Shown here: positions 2,348-38,000 of the stretch, piece by piece
Position numbering within the stretch: the stretch's first letter is position 1
Layout of the letters: each line of letters opens with the position of its first letter
Source of the DNA: a virus
IMG/VR virus record: IMGVR_UViG_3300020000_000041
Span: 1 to 38,551 of that record
Length of the DNA stretch: 38,551 bases
Reading direction: 5' to 3' (one strand)
The notes under the pieces: generated by a model
Seen by the model: only the letters and a program-made list of their open reading frames with translations
The model's database searches: none
Told to the model about the DNA's origin: nothing
Translations under genes and position numbers: made by a program

Positions 2348-4441
2348 TTAATTAGGGTACGCTTTTATTTGGTATGTCGGTAAAATGAACTTCGGTTTCA
2401 TGGCGGGTTCAGGTAGCATTTCGATAGAGCCAAAGCAAGGTAGTAATGCCATCATTAAGGATATAATCACATCCGACTTTGTTCTGTCAGAATGGTTATA
2501 CTCAAGTGCTTGCTGAAGCATGATTGGGAAAACGATACGATGGCAATTACCATTATATCCGTCCACTACCGTACCATCAAAATATTTCTTAGCTACTTCA
2601 AGCTGCATGGCAAATTGGAAAGGGTTGGCACTCTCTGACCCCGGCTTTATCATCTGATGTTTCTTTGTAATATCAAGTGTTATTCTTGGTGTCCATTCAA
2701 GGAAACTTTGGCAATCTTTTGCCAAGAAATAATCGTAGTGATGCGTTCCTGCGTCTATCTCAAAATTTACTTTCGCTCCGTACCACATACAAGCTAACCT
2801 TGCTTGCTCGTAAAGATGTTGCATTAGTCTTGGCTTACCCATATACAACGCAACAGGATAAAGCCCCGTCTCTACCCCATCAATAATGTGAGATTTTTTA
2901 AACACGCATATTGTAGCGGTAGAACCATTTATTGTAAATCCACTCTTGATTGTATCTACGCCTATTGAATATCTTGTACTATTAAGTGGCAACATACTGC
3001 CTCTATGGTCGTAAAAGTTTTCCCGTACAGGCTTTTCAAATAACAACCATTCACCCGCATCATCATCCATGAATCTCGTTTCTTCCCATACTGCTTCTTT
3101 ATTTGTAAAAATGGAAGTCTTCTTTACTTTATCCCCGTACAATCTACATTTTCTTAAATACCGTGGGTTCATTTCAAGTTCCCGCAGTTGATTCATTATT
3201 CTTTCTTCATTGAACTCACATTGGCCTGTGGCAAACGAAAACATATCGTAAACGTCCAATGGGAAGTCACGACGATGTTCCATTAACTGCTCGCCTTTTT
3301 TAAGTTCCCTTTCTTTCATGATAACCGTCCTTGCACCTTCGGTTATCATCTTACCGTCATTACCCATTATTGGTTCTGCGGGGTCATCAACTACGCTTTG
3401 CCCAAACTTATCAATACATCCCGCATAACCTTCTGTTGCAGGAACAAAATATCTTACTACTTTATGTGGTGTTTTTAATCCGAATGGCTCTTTCGTATTT
3501 GGGTTGAGTGCATTCTGGTCGGCTTCATTCCAAAATTGCTGATAATGTTCGCCGCCTTTTTCTTTCGGGTTTACCGTAGTTGGCATATAAGCAAAACCAA
3601 CTTTGTTTCTACCAACTCTTAATGTTGGAGAAACTTTAGACCAGTAAGTATTTATATTTATACGGTGATACTTACCGCCCTCATCAGGTAACAGAAACGA
3701 AACCCTGCCAGAATCGTAGCTATTAATTGAATTGGAAAGATAATCGCAATAAGAATTTAATCCTTCTCTTTTTTGGATAACACCTTTCGCTGCTTTTTCA
3801 ACAGGCTTAACAAACCTTACAAAGTTTTCTGCTTTACTATCGAAGTCTCTTACAAAACATGGCAGCATTGCTTTGAAACCACGCATGAACATTGCCTGAA
3901 AATTCTTCTTGGCAGCATCATCATCAAATGACATTGAACCGCCTCTTTTTTCTTCCGTCCTTCCGCATATCCACCACATCCAATAAAATCCAAGTGATGT
4001 TGCTCCCTGTCTTCTACCTTTTCCACGGGTCACACCAAGTACATCCGTTTCAAAACAAATATACTCCATGAATAAAAAGAATATTCTATCTGCTTCACGG
4101 TATTCAGGTTTTTCACCATGCTCCAATTCCCAATGATTAACATAACCCCAATAAGATGCAGGGATATAAGTAAGGACGTTGTTTATTGAAGCATACACAC
4201 CTTCGCCGTATGTCATTCTTTTTTCTTCTCTCTCTACCCATGCGGCTTGAAGTTTATTATACTTGCCCCTTCTTTCATCAAATGGTACGGATGCAATATC
4301 TATTAGTTCATCATCGTTTGTAAATGGATGGTCTATCCTGCGAAAGTATTGTTCCTCTTGCGGAAGTTTAGAATAAAGAACTTCTTCGTCTTCACGCAAG
4401 TCACGATAAGTACATTTTATTCCTTGTATCTCTACAATCAT
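2348..4441 (-). CDS. terL: terminase large subunit
   Basis: This 697-aa protein is the DNA-packaging motor, which pumps DNA into the prohead and cuts the concatemer. The N-terminal ATPase has a variant Walker A at residues 140-149 (GKGRRQGATS), a Walker B at about 247-254 (VSFLLPDE, with the catalytic Glu after Asp) and a coupling-motif candidate AYMPTTVN (284-291). The C-terminal RNase H-like nuclease shows acidic residues in YSIGVDTIKSG (D496), NFEIDAGTHHYD (about 559-570) and near KSDVIISLMMALL. The length is somewhat above the usual 450-600 residues, because of an N-terminal extension of about 100 residues. The start lies immediately next to the stop of the 191-aa gene. No small terminase is recognisable in the window. 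Confidence 0.93.
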   Translation of the reverse strand: MIVEIQGIKCTYRDLREDEEVLYSKLPQEEQYFRRIDHPFTNDDELIDIASVPFDERRGKYNKLQAAWVEREEKRMTYGEGVYASINNVLTYIPASYWGYVNHWELEHGEKPEYREADRIFFLFMEYICFETDVLGVTRGKGRRQGATSLGFYWMWWICGRTEEKRGGSMSFDDDAAKKNFQAMFMRGFKAMLPCFVRDFDSKAENFVRFVKPVEKAAKGVIQKREGLNSYCDYLSNSINSYDSGRVSFLLPDEGGKYHRININTYWSKVSPTLRVGRNKVGFAYMPTTVNPKEKGGEHYQQFWNEADQNALNPNTKEPFGLKTPHKVVRYFVPATEGYAGCIDKFGQSVVDDPAEPIMGNDGKMITEGARTVIMKERELKKGEQLMEHRRDFPLDVYDMFSFATGQCEFNEERIMNQLRELEMNPRYLRKCRLYGDKVKKTSIFTNKEAVWEETRFMDDDAGEWLLFEKPVRENFYDHRGSMLPLNSTRYSIGVDTIKSGFTINGSTATICVFKKSHIIDGVETGLYPVALYMGKPRLMQHLYEQARLACMWYGAKVNFEIDAGTHHYDYFLAKDCQSFLEWTPRITLDITKKHQMIKPGSESANPFQFAMQLEVAKKYFDGTVVDGYNGNCHRIVFPIMLQQALEYNHSDRTKSDVIISLMMALLPCFGSIEMLPEPAMKPKFILPTYQIKAYPN

Positions 4442-7995: not shown

Positions 7996-8252
7996 AAAGT
8001 ACCTACAATATCTGAATCACGCAATACAACATACACCTGACCATCAAGGTCAATTTCAAAACCACTTGTTTGATTGAAGATAGCTGTACCGTCTTTGGTA
8101 ATTGTTTTGTCGGTTACAAGTTTACCTACGGTTATTATCTTTCCTCTGTGGGCTTTTTTCTTTGCGCTATCAGGTATGAGAAGTCCGTTCTTTTCAGATT
8201 CGGGAACTTCCCTTATTACCCATACGCAATTATTGGTGGCGGTTATTTTCAT
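7992..8252 (-). CDS. groES: co-chaperonin GroES (Cpn10)
   Basis: This 86-aa protein has the Cpn10 layout: an N-terminal strand, a mobile loop with GLLIPDSAKKKAHRG (residues 23-37) corresponding to the GroEL-binding loop, the strand KIITVGK, and a C-terminal EIDLDGQVYVVLRDSDIVG that closely follows the canonical GroES ending (EIKLDGEEYLIMRESDIL-type). It is slightly shorter than cellular GroES (about 95), with a short roof region. It would cap the GroEL ring and bind through its hydrophobic loop. It overlaps groEL by an ATGA, so the pair should be made together. It is encoded downstream of groEL, opposite to the usual bacterial groES-groEL order. Confidence 0.9.
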   Translation of the reverse strand: MKITATNNCVWVIREVPESEKNGLLIPDSAKKKAHRGKIITVGKLVTDKTITKDGTAIFNQTSGFEIDLDGQVYVVLRDSDIVGTL

Positions 8253-9826
8253 ATTACATCAGTTATTATATACTGTGAAGTAAGTATTTGACAGGCTACG
8301 GATGCTGCATTTTGCAAGGCGCAACGATTGGATTTTACCGCATCAATTACCCCCGCTTCTAACAAGTCTTCGCATTGATTGGTTTTTGCGTTATACCCAA
8401 TGTTTTCATCTTGAGATATTTGTTCGGCAATCTCTTCCATATTTCCACCCGCATTTTCACATATTTGTTCAGTCGCCTTATGTATTGAATCGTAAATAAC
8501 TGTGCCGCCCTTCGTCTTAAATACTTGATTAGATGCAATTTTCCAAAATGACAACCCAGAGCCAACTATAAAACCTTCCTCTATTCCACACTTAGTTGCC
8601 CTAACCGCATCATCGGCTCTGTCTTTTTTCTCTTTCATTTCAACTTCTGTCATTGCCCCAATGGAAAGTATAGCTACCCCTTCATTTAGTCTTGCTATTC
8701 TTTTTTCAATTTTTTCTTTTTCTTCTTGCCCTTCAGTTTCTGCAAGTAATTTTTTTAATGCGTCAACCGTTTTGTCAAACTCCTTTTCATCTTTTGCCCC
8801 ATCAACTATAATAGTGCTTTCTTTCCCGATTATTACTTTCTTTGCTTGCCCCAACATTTTCAAGGTTACGTTTTCAAGTTTCACTCCTTTGAGTTCATTG
8901 ATGAACGTACCGCCCGTTACCGATGCAATATCTTCCATCACTCTTATTTTCCCTTCTCCCATGAAAGCTAAATTAACAATACAACCTTTCATTGTTTTTT
9001 GTGCTACATTGAATGTAAGTGTTGCTAATGCTTCCCCATCTGAATCCTCGCATATAATAAGTAATGGACGTTTTGTACCGAGTACCTTTTCAAGTATTGG
9101 CATTAGCGGTGCTAATTGTGAAATAGGTCTGTCGTAAATTAAAATGTATGGTTCTTCTAATTCACATTCTTCTTTTGCAGGATTGGTTATGAAATAAGGT
9201 GATGCCCACCCACGATGAAACTTAAACCCATCTGCAATCTTAATACTTGTACCAATTCCTTTTGCTTCTTCAATCGTAACACTCCCCCCTTCGCCAATTT
9301 GCTTATACGCCTCTGCAATCAAATCACCAATTACTGAATCATTGTTGGCACTTATGGTTGCTACTTGTCTTATGCGTTCAATATCTCCATCAATGGGTAT
9401 TGCCATTTTCTTTAATTCTCCAACTACATATTCAACCGCTTTTTCAATCTCTGCTTTTAACTCATGCGGATTTGCGCCTTCTTTTATTAATTTCAACCCT
9501 TCGGTAACTATTGCTTGTGTAAATAAGCAACAAGTAGTGGTTGCATCTCCCGCATCATTCATCGTCTTTTGCGCTGCTTCCTGAATGAATAACACTCCCG
9601 CTTGCACTAATGGGTCTGTTGAGTTAATGCTTTGCGATACCCGCCACCCATCTTTGGTTACAAGGATTGGATAGTTTTTTGTTCCGTAGTCTTCAATATA
9701 GCTTTGTGCAATTATGACTGTTCTACCTCTCGCACCAAGCGTACTTTTTACAGGATTAGCTACTAAATCCACGCCTTGAAGCAACTTATCTAATGCGGAT
9801 TCACCGCTACTTACTTGTTTGTTCAT
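8249..9826 (-). CDS. groEL: chaperonin GroEL (Cpn60), phage-encoded
   Basis: This 525-aa protein is a full group I chaperonin subunit that folds proteins in an ATP-driven double ring. Visible signatures are STLGARGRTVII (residues 28-39), TKDG with the conserved Asp59, the nucleotide-binding loop GDATTT (93-98; cellular GroEL has GDGTTT), the apical segment GWASPYFITNP and ISQLAPLMPILE, EVEMKEKKDRADDAVRATK with the catalytic Asp at about 406, and GFIVGSGLS (cellular GVVAGGGVA). The C-terminus stops at YIITDVI, so the usual flexible GGM tail of about 20 residues is missing. It lies between the glycan genes and groES. A role in capsid-protein folding is likely but not shown. Because the substitutions lie around the nucleotide site, altered ATPase behaviour is possible. 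Confidence 0.96.
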   Translation of the reverse strand: MNKQVSSGESALDKLLQGVDLVANPVKSTLGARGRTVIIAQSYIEDYGTKNYPILVTKDGWRVSQSINSTDPLVQAGVLFIQEAAQKTMNDAGDATTTCCLFTQAIVTEGLKLIKEGANPHELKAEIEKAVEYVVGELKKMAIPIDGDIERIRQVATISANNDSVIGDLIAEAYKQIGEGGSVTIEEAKGIGTSIKIADGFKFHRGWASPYFITNPAKEECELEEPYILIYDRPISQLAPLMPILEKVLGTKRPLLIICEDSDGEALATLTFNVAQKTMKGCIVNLAFMGEGKIRVMEDIASVTGGTFINELKGVKLENVTLKMLGQAKKVIIGKESTIIVDGAKDEKEFDKTVDALKKLLAETEGQEEKEKIEKRIARLNEGVAILSIGAMTEVEMKEKKDRADDAVRATKCGIEEGFIVGSGLSFWKIASNQVFKTKGGTVIYDSIHKATEQICENAGGNMEEIAEQISQDENIGYNAKTNQCEDLLEAGVIDAVKSNRCALQNAASVACQILTSQYIITDVI

Positions 9827-12300: not shown

Positions 12301-12932
12301 ACCTTTTTTATTATAAATAACCCGCATGATGAAAATACCCATTCAATATTCAAATCCCAATAGCTACCGCCGAATTTTTTAACCGCTTCTTTTTTATTAG
12401 CGCAAATTTGGTCGTTTGGTATATTGCCACTCATGTTCACATTTTCTATTAGTCGTTTAAAATAATCAATAGAACTCGCTCCTTTATTCCATCTACCATC
12501 ATAGTCGCAAAGGGCATCTTCATAGCAATAAAAGCCACCAGACTTTAAATACTTAAATAATATTTCAAATGTCAAAATTGAATCCATACTCATGTGTGAA
12601 CCATCTTCGATGATAATATCGAAATATTGAGGGTGCTGCTCTCCAAACATAATCAAGTCTGCCTTATTTGAATGGTCAACAACGTGAGTTTTAATCCCAA
12701 CTTCGTGAAGATATTCATACCCCTCTACAATGTCAATGCCATGAATTTCTGAATGGGGGAAATATTCATGCCATGTCAGCAATGACGCTCCTTTATCTAC
12801 CCCAATTTCAAGCAAGTTAATTGGCTTATATCTTATAGCATCAAAGAACATCTCATAATAACAAAGATAATTATGTCCTTTTGAAGACTTATCCGTCCCT
12901 TTATTTAATCCTATTAAATCAAGGTTTCTCAT
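12297..12932 (-). CDS. class I SAM-dependent methyltransferase (macrocin O-methyltransferase type)
   Basis: This 211-aa protein begins with NKGTDKSSKGHNYLCYYEMFF, a signature of sugar O-methyltransferases of the demethylmacrocin/rhamnosyl type and of cephalosporin-hydroxylase-like enzymes. The SAM-binding motif I is INLLEIGVDKGASLLTW, motif II HGIDIVEG, and the post-motif FDIIIEDGSHMSMDS carries an acidic D-G-S-H metal-site-like segment. It would methylate a hydroxyl, plausibly on a glycan, using SAM. It overlaps the neighbouring methyltransferase by 14 bases and the downstream transferase by ATGA. Substrate unknown. Confidence 0.75.
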   Translation of the reverse strand: MRNLDLIGLNKGTDKSSKGHNYLCYYEMFFDAIRYKPINLLEIGVDKGASLLTWHEYFPHSEIHGIDIVEGYEYLHEVGIKTHVVDHSNKADLIMFGEQHPQYFDIIIEDGSHMSMDSILTFEILFKYLKSGGFYCYEDALCDYDGRWNKGASSIDYFKRLIENVNMSGNIPNDQICANKKEAVKKFGGSYWDLNIEWVFSSCGLFIIKKV

Positions 12933-22628: not shown

Positions 22629-22761
22629 TTCAATTATGAATTTTTCTTAATTAAAAATAAAGTCGCCGAAAGTGTTCAGTACGAGCAGATACTTTCGGGA
22701 CGATTTAGTAGCAATACTAACCCGCCCCTTTCAACTCGTACTTGTTAGGGGTATTTTTTTT
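22629..22761 (+). ncRNA. candidate structured RNA ending in a terminator (sRNA or attenuator)
   Basis: The non-coding stretch folds by eye into three hairpins. Hairpin 1 (22661-22705): AGTCG/CGATT and CCGAAAGT/ACTTTCGG, with a two-base GA bulge. Hairpin 2 (22705-22720): TTAGTA-GCAA-TACTAA, with a GNRA tetraloop. Hairpin 3 (22725-22751): CCCCT/AGGGG followed by eight T. The loop of hairpin 1 contains AGTACGAG (22678-22685) and the loop of hairpin 3 contains its exact complement CTCGTACT (22735-22742), so an 8-bp kissing interaction or an anti-terminator pairing is possible. CGGG (22696-22699) could instead pair with CCCG (22721-22724). The end lies 20 bases before the next gene. I do not recognise an RNA family. 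Confidence 0.6.
22725..22761 (+). terminator. terminator hairpin of the structured RNA
   Basis: CCCCT pairs with AGGGG over a 17-base loop and is followed by TATTTTTTTT. It lies upstream of the HNH gene at 22781, so read-through control (attenuation) is possible. Confidence 0.65.
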
Positions 22762-22780: not shown

Positions 22781-23212
22781 ATGACTTACGCCGAAAAACT
22801 CAAAGACCCTCGTTGGCAAAAGAAGCGGTTAGAAATATTTGAACGAGATGGTTTTGCTTGCCGCCTTTGCAGAAACAAGAAGGCAACCCTTAATGTTCAT
22901 CACCATCTATACGAGAGGGGTAAAGACCCGTGGGAATACTCTAATGATGTTTTAGATACGCTTTGTAATAAGTGCCACGCTGTTGTTGAACACTCAAAAA
23001 CTGCATTCCCGTCATTAGGTGTTATTCAAATTTACTATAAAGATACTGGCGGTGAGATTGATTTGGCATTCGTTGTTTTTTCAGAAAAACAAAATATACA
23101 TTTGGCGGTCTTGAATTATTACAGCGAAAATCATATTGAGTTTGTTGTAAACATCCCATCAAATATTATAAAATTAGTTCACGCCTTAACAGCCACCGCC
23201 CAAAATGTCTAA
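22781..23212 (+). CDS. HNH endonuclease-type protein
   Basis: From the ATG at 22781 (143 aa); a longer frame starting in the terminator stem is rejected. The layout is RWQKKRLEIFERDGFACRLC (C27, C30), NVHHHLYERGKDPWEYSND (H40-42) and TLCNKCHAVVEH (C62, C65, H66, H71): the classical HNH finger with two zinc Cys pairs and the catalytic His pair. It would cut DNA with a divalent metal. The C-terminal 70 residues hold a small alpha/beta domain (IQIYYKDTGGEIDLAFVVFS) that I cannot assign. It overlaps the initiator gene by eight bases. Confidence 0.75.
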   Translation: MTYAEKLKDPRWQKKRLEIFERDGFACRLCRNKKATLNVHHHLYERGKDPWEYSNDVLDTLCNKCHAVVEHSKTAFPSLGVIQIYYKDTGGEIDLAFVVFSEKQNIHLAVLNYYSENHIEFVVNIPSNIIKLVHALTATAQNV

Positions 23213-23981
23213 ACAAAAACAACCGTACATCCCATTTTATATCGGGGATTATATAAAAGATACCAGAAAACTACCATTATCTGTTCGTGGGGCTTGGGTT
23301 GACTTACTTCTGTTTATGTGGGATGAAGAACAGCGTGGTGAGATAGTTGGCACTATGGATGAGTTTGCGGGAATACTAAGTTGTTCCACCTCAGAGGCAG
23401 AATTTGTTGTCGGTTTGTTGATTGAAAAAAAGGTCTGCAACCATGAAAAAATAAACGGCAGCAAAATAAAAATAATAAGCCGCCGTATGAAAAAAGACCA
23501 CGAAATTTCGTTAAAACGTTCAGAATCAGGTAAAAAATCGGCAGAATCAAAGCAAAATACACAACAAAACTTCAACAAAACTTCAACAAACGAGCCAACA
23601 AAAATTAAACAAAACCCTGAATATGAATATAAAGATGATAATGAAATTAAAGTTACTTCTTTGGAAGGTGCAGGAAACTTTTCTTTCGACAAGAACACAA
23701 AGCTGTCCGTAACGACTTTGGAAGCCGCAGAGATGAATCAATTCACCCACACGAAAAATAAGAACACGGATTTTGTTAAAAGCCAATGGAGAATTTTTTT
23801 AACAGAGCGAAGTAACGACCCGCCTAAAAGGTGGCAAAGTATTTCAGAATTGAATAAATATTTTTTAAACTTTTTAAGAGATAAATTCCCTAAAAATGGA
23901 ACAGCATATCAGCGAAACAATTCAGAAAATGGACTTAGCAAAGAAACCATCGAGCCTTCAGGAAGTTTTGGAAAGTTATAA
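23205..23981 (+). CDS. DUF1376-like replication initiation protein
   Basis: This 258-aa protein starts KQPYIPFYIGDYIKDTRKLP, the usual opening of DUF1376-like phage replication proteins, then a winged-helix segment (SVRGAWVDLLLFMWDEEQRG, ILSCSTSEAEFVVGLLIEKK, INGSKIKIISRRM). The middle (residues 105-150) is low-complexity Asn/Lys/Glu, and the end (WRIFLTERSNDPPKRWQSIS) may contact the helicase loader. Such proteins bind the origin and recruit a DnaC-like loader; the next gene encodes one, overlapping by 86 bases. The origin itself is not identified in this gene. Confidence 0.7.
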   Translation: MSKQKQPYIPFYIGDYIKDTRKLPLSVRGAWVDLLLFMWDEEQRGEIVGTMDEFAGILSCSTSEAEFVVGLLIEKKVCNHEKINGSKIKIISRRMKKDHEISLKRSESGKKSAESKQNTQQNFNKTSTNEPTKIKQNPEYEYKDDNEIKVTSLEGAGNFSFDKNTKLSVTTLEAAEMNQFTHTKNKNTDFVKSQWRIFLTERSNDPPKRWQSISELNKYFLNFLRDKFPKNGTAYQRNNSENGLSKETIEPSGSFGKL

Positions 23982-24744
23982 CCACATAGAACTTACTGAG
24001 GATGAGGTGTCAGAGGCTATAATTTCAAGAAAACAAAAGAAGGAACAAGAAATTAACCAAAAGAGGATTTTAGAAGTTGAGGCCGAAAACAGAAAAATGT
24101 TCACTCAATTCAGATGGACTTATGACCAAACGAAATCATTTGCGCTATGGAGAGCATCACAAATATTCGATAAGCAGTTTGTTGTTGACCAATCAAATTC
24201 GATAATATTTGAATTATTGTGCTACTACTTTTCACAGGATGATAGATTTATTTCTTTTGCTGCCGCAGCAGGGTTAGATGGGTTTTCCCTAAACAAAGGA
24301 ATTATTTTATGTGGGAATTATGGGACAGGTAAAACGTGGATGATGAAGCTGTTTCAGAAGAACCAAAGACATTGCTATATGATTAGAAACTCTAAAGAAC
24401 TTGCTGATTTGTATGAAAAAAACGGCGAAGATGCTATCGAAGAATACCTAAAGCCGGTTAAAAACTCCGTGAACGATAGTGCATTATTTTATCAGCCGTT
24501 TCTTGGGCTATGTATTGATGATATAGGGACGGATAATGTAAAGGTGAATTATGGTAACAAGAAGAATGTGATAGGAGATATAGTTGAGAAACGGTACGCA
24601 AATGGCAATATAGGAACAGGGTTTCATTGTACCACCAACCTTACCGCTAAAGGGCTACAAGATTTTTATGGTGGTAGGGTAGTAAGTAGAATGAGGGAGA
24701 TTTTTAACGTCATTGAGTTAAGCGGGGATGATAGAAGAAAGTAG
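23896..24744 (+). CDS. DnaC-like helicase loader ATPase
   Basis: This 282-aa AAA+ protein has an N-terminal helical region, Walker A GNYGTGKT (residues 140-147), Walker B LGLCIDDIG (203-211), a sensor-type TTNL (about 246-249) and an arginine-finger-like SRMREIF (263-269). This is the DnaC/IstB pattern of helicase loaders, which place the replicative helicase on single-stranded DNA. No replicative helicase is seen in this window, so the host helicase may be used. The ATG at 23896 overlaps the initiator by 86 bases; an ATG at 23929 (MDLAKKPSS) is an alternative. Confidence 0.85.
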   Translation: MEQHISETIQKMDLAKKPSSLQEVLESYNHIELTEDEVSEAIISRKQKKEQEINQKRILEVEAENRKMFTQFRWTYDQTKSFALWRASQIFDKQFVVDQSNSIIFELLCYYFSQDDRFISFAAAAGLDGFSLNKGIILCGNYGTGKTWMMKLFQKNQRHCYMIRNSKELADLYEKNGEDAIEEYLKPVKNSVNDSALFYQPFLGLCIDDIGTDNVKVNYGNKKNVIGDIVEKRYANGNIGTGFHCTTNLTAKGLQDFYGGRVVSRMREIFNVIELSGDDRRK

Positions 24745-36465: not shown

Positions 36466-37230
36466 ATGAGCATTAATTGGGATTCTATAAAATTTCGTGC
36501 CTCATCATGGGGTAATCTACTTGCAGAAAGTAAAGAAAAGGGTAATCCCATTGGCAAGACCTGTGCAGGAGAGTTAATAAAAATATATAACCAAGAAGTA
36601 TATGGAAGAAAAAAAGACATTACAACAAAGCAAATGGACAAAGGAATCATCTGCGAACCTGAAGCCATTCAACTCTTTAGTCTATTGGAAGGACGGATGT
36701 ATTACAAGAATGAAGAAGAATTGGAGAACGGATGGTTTAAAGGGCATCCAGACATTGCGGATTCCGACAATATCAGAAACGCTACGGTGGTAAACGACAT
36801 CAAATGTTCGTGGGATTTAGATAGTTTTATGGCAAAGCTGTTGGAAGATGCAGATAAGTCTTACGTTGCTCAATTAAATTGCTATTACAGCCTCACAGGA
36901 GCGCAAGGGGGCAACATCGTCTACTGCTTGGTATCAGCACCACCACAAATAATCAATCAGGAAATGGAAAGCCTGCAATACAGGATGGCAAAGAACACAG
37001 AGAAGATAGATTTCTTGGAAGATTACGAAAAAGCTGCCAAAGAATTGAGAAATTTAATGGTTTTCGACGACATAGACCCAAGAGAAAGAGTAATAAAAAT
37101 TCCAGTACCAAGAAATGATGAACTTATTGAAAAAATGCAAAAAAAAGTACCCGTCATGAGAGAATGGTTAGAGAAATTTCATAAAAAACACATGAACTTA
37201 TACCCAAAGGAGGAAGTATTGGTACGATGA
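36466..37230 (+). CDS. YqaJ/lambda-exonuclease-like recombination nuclease
   Basis: This 254-aa PD-(D/E)XK nuclease has a conserved Glu in GIICEPEA (E64), the core FKGHPDIADS (D96), VVNDIKCSW (D111, K113), and a helix Q136-Y140 (AQLNCYY), which is the order of lambda-exonuclease/YqaJ-type recombinases. It would digest double-stranded ends processively 5'-3' for single-strand annealing or replication repair. No annealing protein is seen beside it; the partner may lie outside the window. Coupled by ATGA with the PAPS-reductase-family gene. Confidence 0.8.
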   Translation: MSINWDSIKFRASSWGNLLAESKEKGNPIGKTCAGELIKIYNQEVYGRKKDITTKQMDKGIICEPEAIQLFSLLEGRMYYKNEEELENGWFKGHPDIADSDNIRNATVVNDIKCSWDLDSFMAKLLEDADKSYVAQLNCYYSLTGAQGGNIVYCLVSAPPQIINQEMESLQYRMAKNTEKIDFLEDYEKAAKELRNLMVFDDIDPRERVIKIPVPRNDELIEKMQKKVPVMREWLEKFHKKHMNLYPKEEVLVR

Positions 37231-38000
37231 AGAAATTCATTTCATTTAGTGGTGGAGTTGAAAGCACAACAATGTGTATTTTGTATGGAGGTGATGCGAA
37301 GGCAATTTGGGCAGATACGGGGTCGGAGCATAAAAAGATGTACGAAAGAATGAGTATGGTACAAGATGAGATAAAAAAGATACACCCTGAATTTGAAATT
37401 ATAAAAGTTAAAGGTGTTGGCAAGCATAAAAATAAAGAATACGATACATTGGAAAAGTTGGCCGTTGCACAAAAATTTATGCCGTCTGGTATGGCAAGAT
37501 ACTGCACAAGGATATTTAAGATTGAGCCAATAGATGATTACTTAAAAGAACAAGGCGAGTGTGAGTTAATGATTGGGCTTAATGTAGACGAAGAAAATAG
37601 CCGAGAGGGTAATTGGGGGCTTAATGAGAACGTGAAATACGTTTACCCGCTAATAAATGAGGGGCTTACAAGGAGTGATTGCGAAGAAGTGTTGAATTTT
37701 TACAACCTACACCCAAATATGAAACCATATATGCTAAGAGGTGGTTGTAGAATGTGTTTTTTCAAATCAGAGAAGGAATATAGAGCCATGTATCATTTAG
37801 AACCAGATGAATTTTGGGAAGTTGTTGCTTTTGAGGAAGAAATACAAGACAAAAGGAAGAAATTTTACAGTATAATGGGCAATGGTAAAAGTTTAAGGCA
37901 GTTAGCCAACGAATGCAAGCATGAATTATTCGATACTAAGGCTCTTTATGACGATTATAAAAAATCAGGTACATCTTGTGGTGCTTTTTGCCATCGGTAA
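37227..38000 (+). CDS. PAPS-reductase-family PP-loop protein
   Basis: This 257-aa protein starts MKKFISFSGGVESTTMCILY with the PP-loop SGGVES (residues 8-13), then WADTGSEHKKMYERM and ARYCTRIFKIEPIDDY, as in phosphoadenosine-phosphosulphate reductase-like adenylyltransferases. Further Cys residues occur in RGGCRMCFFKS and SCGAFCHR. Family members in phages and in DNA phosphorothioation (DndC) activate a substrate by adenylation before sulphur or nucleotide transfer. A role in nucleic-acid modification or sulphur metabolism is possible; the substrate is unknown. Confidence 0.75.
   Translation: MKKFISFSGGVESTTMCILYGGDAKAIWADTGSEHKKMYERMSMVQDEIKKIHPEFEIIKVKGVGKHKNKEYDTLEKLAVAQKFMPSGMARYCTRIFKIEPIDDYLKEQGECELMIGLNVDEENSREGNWGLNENVKYVYPLINEGLTRSDCEEVLNFYNLHPNMKPYMLRGGCRMCFFKSEKEYRAMYHLEPDEFWEVVAFEEEIQDKRKKFYSIMGNGKSLRQLANECKHELFDTKALYDDYKKSGTSCGAFCHR

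Follow-up and report, generated by a model that had tools for sequence, protein, structure and literature searches.

The stretch of DNA analysed here, referred to as the window, is a virus record of 38.5 kb whose portal, exonuclease and DnaC-like proteins have relatives among Bacteroidota phages. The gap from the end of one ORF (22527) to the start of an HNH ORF (22781) holds a structured leader, which is followed on the plus strand by the HNH gene, a DUF1376 primosomal gene and a DnaC-like gene. The region 22662-22761 is predicted to fold into a 5' hairpin, a hairpin with a GCAA tetraloop and a terminator hairpin with U8. The features are as follows.

22662..22701, plus strand: 5' hairpin H1 with stems GUC/GAC and CCGAAAGUGU/AUACUUUCGG, bulged G22665 and a 13-nt loop (fold prediction)
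22678..22685, plus strand: kissing sequence 1, AGTACGAG, in the H1 loop (read from the sequence)
22705..22720, plus strand: middle hairpin of 6 bp with GCAA (GNRA) tetraloop (fold prediction)
22724..22752, plus strand: terminator hairpin H3 with basal stem GCCCCU/AGGGGU, UU/UU internal loop, CAA/UUG and a 7-nt loop
22735..22742, plus strand: kissing sequence 2, CTCGTACT, at the H3 apex, exact complement of kissing sequence 1
22754..22761, plus strand: U8 tract of the intrinsic terminator (T8 in the sequence)
22781..23212, plus strand: ORF for an HNH endonuclease of the KLKDPRWQKKRLE type, probably a homing gene that was inserted between leader and replication gene
23205..23981, plus strand: replication (primosomal) protein, DUF1376 N-terminal part (Pfam 30.0 bits, just below the cut-off of 30.1)
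23896..24744, plus strand: DnaC-like helicase loader, best named relatives in Tenacibaculum phage Gundel_1 and Cellulophaga phages

The HNH nuclease is a stand-alone protein of 143 aa. The three hairpins that the first-pass annotation had placed in 22629-22761 were borne out and are more stable than shuffled sequences (MFE -34.2 kcal/mol, z -3.76; 0 of 200 shuffles equally stable, 2 of 2000 in a second run), and the GNRA tetraloop it had named is the GCAA of the middle hairpin. A very weak A/T hairpin inside that range (22632-22652) is probably not part of the leader. The annotation had also claimed that the loop of the first hairpin is complementary to that of the terminator, and this pairing is indeed exact at 8 of 8 nt, with a distance of 49 nt between the two loops and CTCGTAC (22735-22741) as the apical loop of H3. 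Such an 8-nt match was reached by 4 of 2000 dinucleotide shuffles, a count that is uncorrected for the choice by eye among 38 kb; taken alone, the loop match in the window is uncommon and suggestive, not decisive. The pattern GTACGAG..CTCGTAC occurs once in the window and in none of 100 shuffles, and a relaxed scan of both window strands for a complementary-loop pair plus terminator returned this instance as the sole one.

Two other claims fared less well. The promoter-like pair said to precede the hairpins was not recovered, as a sigma-70 scan of the window gave no promoter at the leader and no TAnnTTTG box is present on the plus strand between 21312 and 23097. The competing CGGG/CCCG pairing exists in the letters, but a counterpart was seen in no relative and a switch is unsupported. 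As far as Rfam 15 goes, the RNA indeed belongs to no known class: the window matched no family at the gathering threshold and none convincingly below it.

Complementary loops in related leaders

The HNH protein of the window has many relatives in viral contigs, and their upstream regions were read for leaders. In these leaders a TATATTTG box is followed by a hairpin, then a linker and finally a terminator, which finishes just before the start codon. They carry complementary loops in other letters (GTACGAG, GTACCAG, GGACGAG, ATGCGAC and GTCGCAT, each with its exact complement). The loop complement is exact in 12 of 13 HNH-linked records, and the 13th (L070) has 6-nt loops, CCGTAC/GTACGG. RNAalifold on 12 of these leaders supported both stems. 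A kissing leader was found in 21 of the 80 loci reached via the HNH protein, identical copies still being counted. A relaxed rule was passed by 17 of 110 HNH upstream regions, three of which (L105, L047 and L078) look chance-like, and the window itself fails this rule with an apical stem of only 3 bp. Searches of viral contigs with the DnaC protein of the window returned no relative, and its primosomal protein found one (L306, 36% identity), without a leader.

Other structured RNAs are also common at these loci. Terminator-capped RNAs without kissing loops often precede HNH relatives (L146, L148, L150, L171, L181, L089) and stand likewise before the HNH start in L110, L137, L152, L034, L078, L028 and L057. 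In L075 the int-alpA RNA (RF02996) lies directly 5' of the HNH gene (3908-3976), and look-alikes were noted by eye in L009, L010, L049, L059, L080, L094 and L174. A search of Rfam 15 with 34 related loci gave two matches, int-alpA in L075 and a tRNA in L010, both outside the kissing leaders.

Viral contigs were then scanned loop-blind, using the conserved lower part of the terminator as query and leaving the loops free. With the first scaffold 52 stretches were obtained, 29 of them distinct by one rule; all 29 have a complementary H1 loop, and a new loop pair, ATTGCAG/CTGCAAT, came up. Scanning with a different, second scaffold yielded 21 stretches (9 distinct), among them GTGCGAG/CTCGCAC, which is a double change, and a third scaffold returned only two loci that were already known. 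When one stricter rule was applied to both scans, 34 distinct leaders remained (25 + 9), and an exact loop complement is found upstream in 34 of 34. In all 34 the loops are 38-41 nt apart and H1 is preceded by a TTTG box, so that the RNA would begin near H1. If the upstream hairpin with the longest stem is picked blindly, the choice falls on the complementary hairpin in 23 of the 34; in the other 11 a longer hairpin, mostly A/T-rich, is present. Of 137 further terminator-like hairpins whose loops have 7 nt, examined as a control, 3 passed a comparable rule. This control replaced one on reversed sequences (81 matches vs 137), which was dropped because paired hairpins survive reversal; counts of G-U vs A-C were dropped as well, since the detector itself requires paired letters.

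Across the family the H1 loops GTACGAG, GGACGAG, GTACCAG, ATTGCAG, CCGTAC, ATGCGAC, GTCGCAT and GTGCGAG all occur with their complement, and loop types differ even between otherwise similar leaders. Covariation was evaluated in alignment A4, which holds 14 leaders picked without a complementarity rule and is therefore the fair test, as alignment A3 (22 rows) contains rows selected for complementarity. In A4, where sequences and not independent events are counted, the kissing helix is 100% paired (210/210 cells) with changes on both sides in 6 of the 7 kissing pairs. None of 500 shuffles reached any measure and slid controls performed far worse. One kissing pair, formed by position 6 of loop 1 and its partner (columns 10 and 21), is A-U in 22/22 rows of A3 and 14/14 rows of A4, whereas the remaining six pairs vary. 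Internal loops are conserved within one scaffold (AAGGAGGCG .. CAAATCTG) but differ completely between scaffolds, and only the kiss and the terminator are common to all. Among 52 distinct hits the loop spacing is 38-41 nt in 41 and 45-53 nt in 9, the latter mostly with a middle hairpin. As judged from sequence comparison, the kissing-leader design is real and widespread among phages. Covariation of stems and loops, the check named in the first-pass annotation, is thus seen in the relatives, and their loops do not change independently, which had been named as the result that would speak against it.

The leader of the window belongs to another scaffold than that of covariance model R1 (GCCCAAGGAGGCG), which gave no match to it, and a close relative was not found. 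The kiss is less constrained in the window because the H1 loop there has 13 nt, compared with 7 in the relatives. The 7-mer GTACGAG of the window is also the most frequent H1 loop among relatives, a ranking to which one scan with this 7-mer fixed contributed, and the 13-mer CAACTCGTACTTG of H3 recurs in L234, L238, L244, L248 and L249, found by a scan in which the central 9 letters were fixed. A scan with the window's own loop pair fixed gave 46 stretches, with leaders of unrelated stems before many genes; having fixed loops in the query, it is uninformative on covariation. A GNRA middle hairpin is also present in L244, L248, L254 and L026, which together with the window form a three-hairpin class. 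The best layout match to the window is L026, which was reached via the HNH protein only. It has the H1 loop GTACAGA, a GGGG-GCAA-CCCC hairpin, the terminator loop TCTGTAC and a spacing of 48 (49 in the window), and behind its leader come an HNH ORF, then one of replication type and a third that by eye resembles a DnaB-like helicase. Since its loop pair is different, covariation extends to the class of the window, by one loop variant only. The window shares with the family the exact loop complement, the three-hairpin spacing of 45-53 nt and the position before replication genes, and lacks the TAnnTTTG box that is typical of the Bacteroidota scaffolds.

Genes behind the leader and cultured phages

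The first gene behind the leader is mostly a replication gene, or a homing endonuclease gene and then a replication gene; some are of other or unknown kind. Pfam assigned Lin1244_N and HTH_36 to genes behind leaders, and one product resembles Rep of TP901-1. In L265 the leader is followed directly by the replication gene, whereas in L243 a GIY-YIG gene stands between nearly the same leader and the same replication gene. For the HNH gene an equivalent contrast is seen between L200 and L189, and leaders before replication genes without any HNH gene were seen in L183, L186, L200, L253 and L265. The paired loci with and without a homing gene indicate that the leader belongs to the replication operon and that the homing gene is a guest. 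From gene order, the predicted homing genes, HNH or GIY-YIG, are insertions, present in some loci only, between leader and replication genes, and the leader accounts for their recurrent landing place.

Three records have two leaders with a different loop pair in each (L186/L227, L262 and L256). In L186 and L227 the second leader lies about 1.9 kb behind the first, has the loop pair GTGAGAT/ATCTCAC and is followed by an ORF whose product looks, by eye, like a NUMOD-type HNH protein. The minus strand of L256 has two such elements (reverse-strand offsets about 617-680 and 12565-12610): a kissing leader in front of an ORF that looks TnpB-like, again by eye, and a second pair of hairpins, with loops TTGCAG/CTGCAA, ahead of a different ORF.

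Four cultured phages, Gundel_1, phi13:2, phi19:3 and phi46:3, have a 9-nt version of the kiss before replication-region genes, so that the leader is experimentally accessible. The DnaC-like gene of Tenacibaculum phage Gundel_1 is the best named match of the window. The 169-nt gap before its replication protein contains a TATATTTG box and a hairpin with GTAGGATTC in its loop, then a terminator whose loop includes GAATCCTAC, and a T-tract. In the Cellulophaga phages phi13:2, phi19:3 and phi46:3, which are near-identical and were counted as one lineage, CTCTCACAA .. TTGTGAGAG is common to all with a distance of 39 nt. Here the leaders precede genes located upstream of the DnaC-like gene, and the gene that comes first after the phi46:3 leader encodes an HNH protein of another type. 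These gaps were inspected because they lie before replication genes; their hairpins are less regular and are missed by the strict detector. A leader is not present in all Bacteroidota phages: the detector gave none in phages 11b and 6H, the first 50 kb of phi38:1 and 50 kb of elemoA, although Gundel_1 and phi13:2 are missed by it too. Its one match in phi38:1 falls in a tRNA cluster. BLAST of the leaders against named phages and plasmids gave no true match. In cellular genomes the loop pattern was found in 0 of 395 and model R1 in 0 of 296 and 0 of 5, weak negatives as the sets included no positive-control genome.

Proposed function and rival readings

We consider it fairly probable (about 0.6) that the RNA is the structured 5' leader of the replication operon and a transcription attenuator, in which an intramolecular kiss sets termination before the replication genes. 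This reading is supported by the predicted folds, by an architecture that is conserved, by compensatory changes in each of the three helices, the kissing helix among them, and by the position in front of the replication genes. The first-pass annotation had offered an attenuator, a riboswitch-like element or a regulatory sRNA; the covariation in relatives agrees with this range, and the attenuator fits the position before replication genes. The nascent RNA would fold the 5' hairpin, the GNRA hairpin and then the intrinsic terminator directly before the operon, and the loop of the 5' hairpin would kiss the apical loop of the terminator over 7-8 bp. The loop-loop contact is supported by covariation, whereas termination, regulated read-through and an intramolecular kiss that favours termination are inferred. 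The kiss would influence how often the polymerase stops and thereby the dose of replication initiator and helicase loader. Most likely it promotes termination in cis; candidates for its relief are a factor from the phage or the host, competition, and RNA dilution. That loop spacing stays constant from scaffold to scaffold points to a fixed cis geometry. In the relatives the start codon follows close behind the U-tract, so that every upstream-started transcript of the replication genes must pass the terminator and the leader would set their level. The HNH gene would have been inserted later, by homing, between the leader and the replication gene.

Alternatively, although we regard this as unlikely, the leader could act in trans as a self-antisense RNA. 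The terminated leader of about 100 nt would accumulate with genome copies, pair with the loops of nascent leaders and change termination, providing control of copy number or superinfection like plasmid RNAI/RNAII with the loop pair as specificity tag. Fully complementary loops of 6-7 nt resemble those of plasmid kissing RNAs, the genes behind the leader are replication initiators, and loop types vary between otherwise similar leaders as well as within the records with two leaders. However, an intramolecular contact already explains covariation within one RNA, three two-leader records are not enough to establish that paralogues have to differ, and the constant spacing favours a cis geometry. 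It is rather improbable that Bacteroidota and other phages control their own replication in this way, with the terminated leader as antisense regulator and a 6-9-nt loop pair as diversifying specificity tag. If they did, copies of one phage could sense each other, and the tag would perhaps exclude superinfecting phages of the same tag, like plasmid incompatibility groups.

It is doubtful that the leader senses a ligand or protein, as a riboswitch or antiterminator-binding site in which the kiss is a tertiary scaffold like L2-L3 of purine riboswitches. The conserved internal loops of one scaffold and the GNRA middle hairpins could form a binding site, and the invariant A-U pair in the kissing helix would agree with this; on the other hand, the internal loops are wholly different between scaffolds, with only kiss and terminator universal, and no Rfam riboswitch matches. 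An unregulated insulator, that is a plain terminator whose apex is docked on the 5' hairpin to protect the RNA or speed folding, appears improbable to us: the sequence reveals only termination and structure, but replication-gene transcripts started upstream would have to cross the terminator. A part of the HNH homing element, for example a guide or cofactor RNA of the nuclease, is hardly credible in spite of the leaders at a quarter of HNH-found loci (21/80, with identical copies), because the same leaders precede replication genes without an HNH gene and the homing gene may be GIY-YIG instead. A guide RNA of the HNH protein was accordingly rejected on the leader-only loci; a group I intron remnant and a type III toxin-antitoxin RNA were also considered and rejected. 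Chance complementarity, which 4 of 2000 shuffles would allow for the window, has a negligible probability and is refuted for the family by the 34 of 34 blind leaders, the double compensatory changes and the control of 3/137.

Comparison with known RNAs

Plasmid replication attenuators of the pT181 and pIP501 type work with antisense RNA, and RNAI/RNAII of ColE1 use kissing loops. Like these systems, the phage leader stands before a replication gene and combines an intrinsic terminator with fully complementary hairpin loops of 6-9 nt; unlike them, it has both loops in one RNA, needs no convergent antisense gene and belongs to a phage. Purine riboswitches contain the L2-L3 kiss, in which likewise two 7-nt loops of one leader pair mutually, whereas the phage leader has no three-way junction or purine core, uses the terminator's own loop as one partner and has no Rfam match. 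The pRNA of phi29 is a phage RNA whose complementary loops pair between molecules for packaging, while here a terminator before replication genes is involved. The HEARO or omega RNA of IscB adjoins an HNH nuclease gene, as the kissing leader does in the window, but the latter is kept without the nuclease, which is itself a stand-alone protein. The int-alpA RNA is a known candidate phage RNA found upstream in an HNH locus of the same family (L075), yet it matches neither the window nor the kissing leaders.

No title or abstract opening returned by a full-text literature search of open-access journal articles describes such leaders, and within these limits the design is apparently undescribed, as well as absent from Rfam. 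To our knowledge, little has been reported on phage gene regulation in Bacteroidota. The leader would provide a concrete RNA control point for the replication of Bacteroidota phages, with a covariation-backed architecture that recurs on unrelated stems at the entry of the replication operon in many phages. The phage of the window also encodes a GroEL-like chaperonin (8249-9826, minus strand) and a PAPS-reductase-like protein (37227-38000, plus strand).
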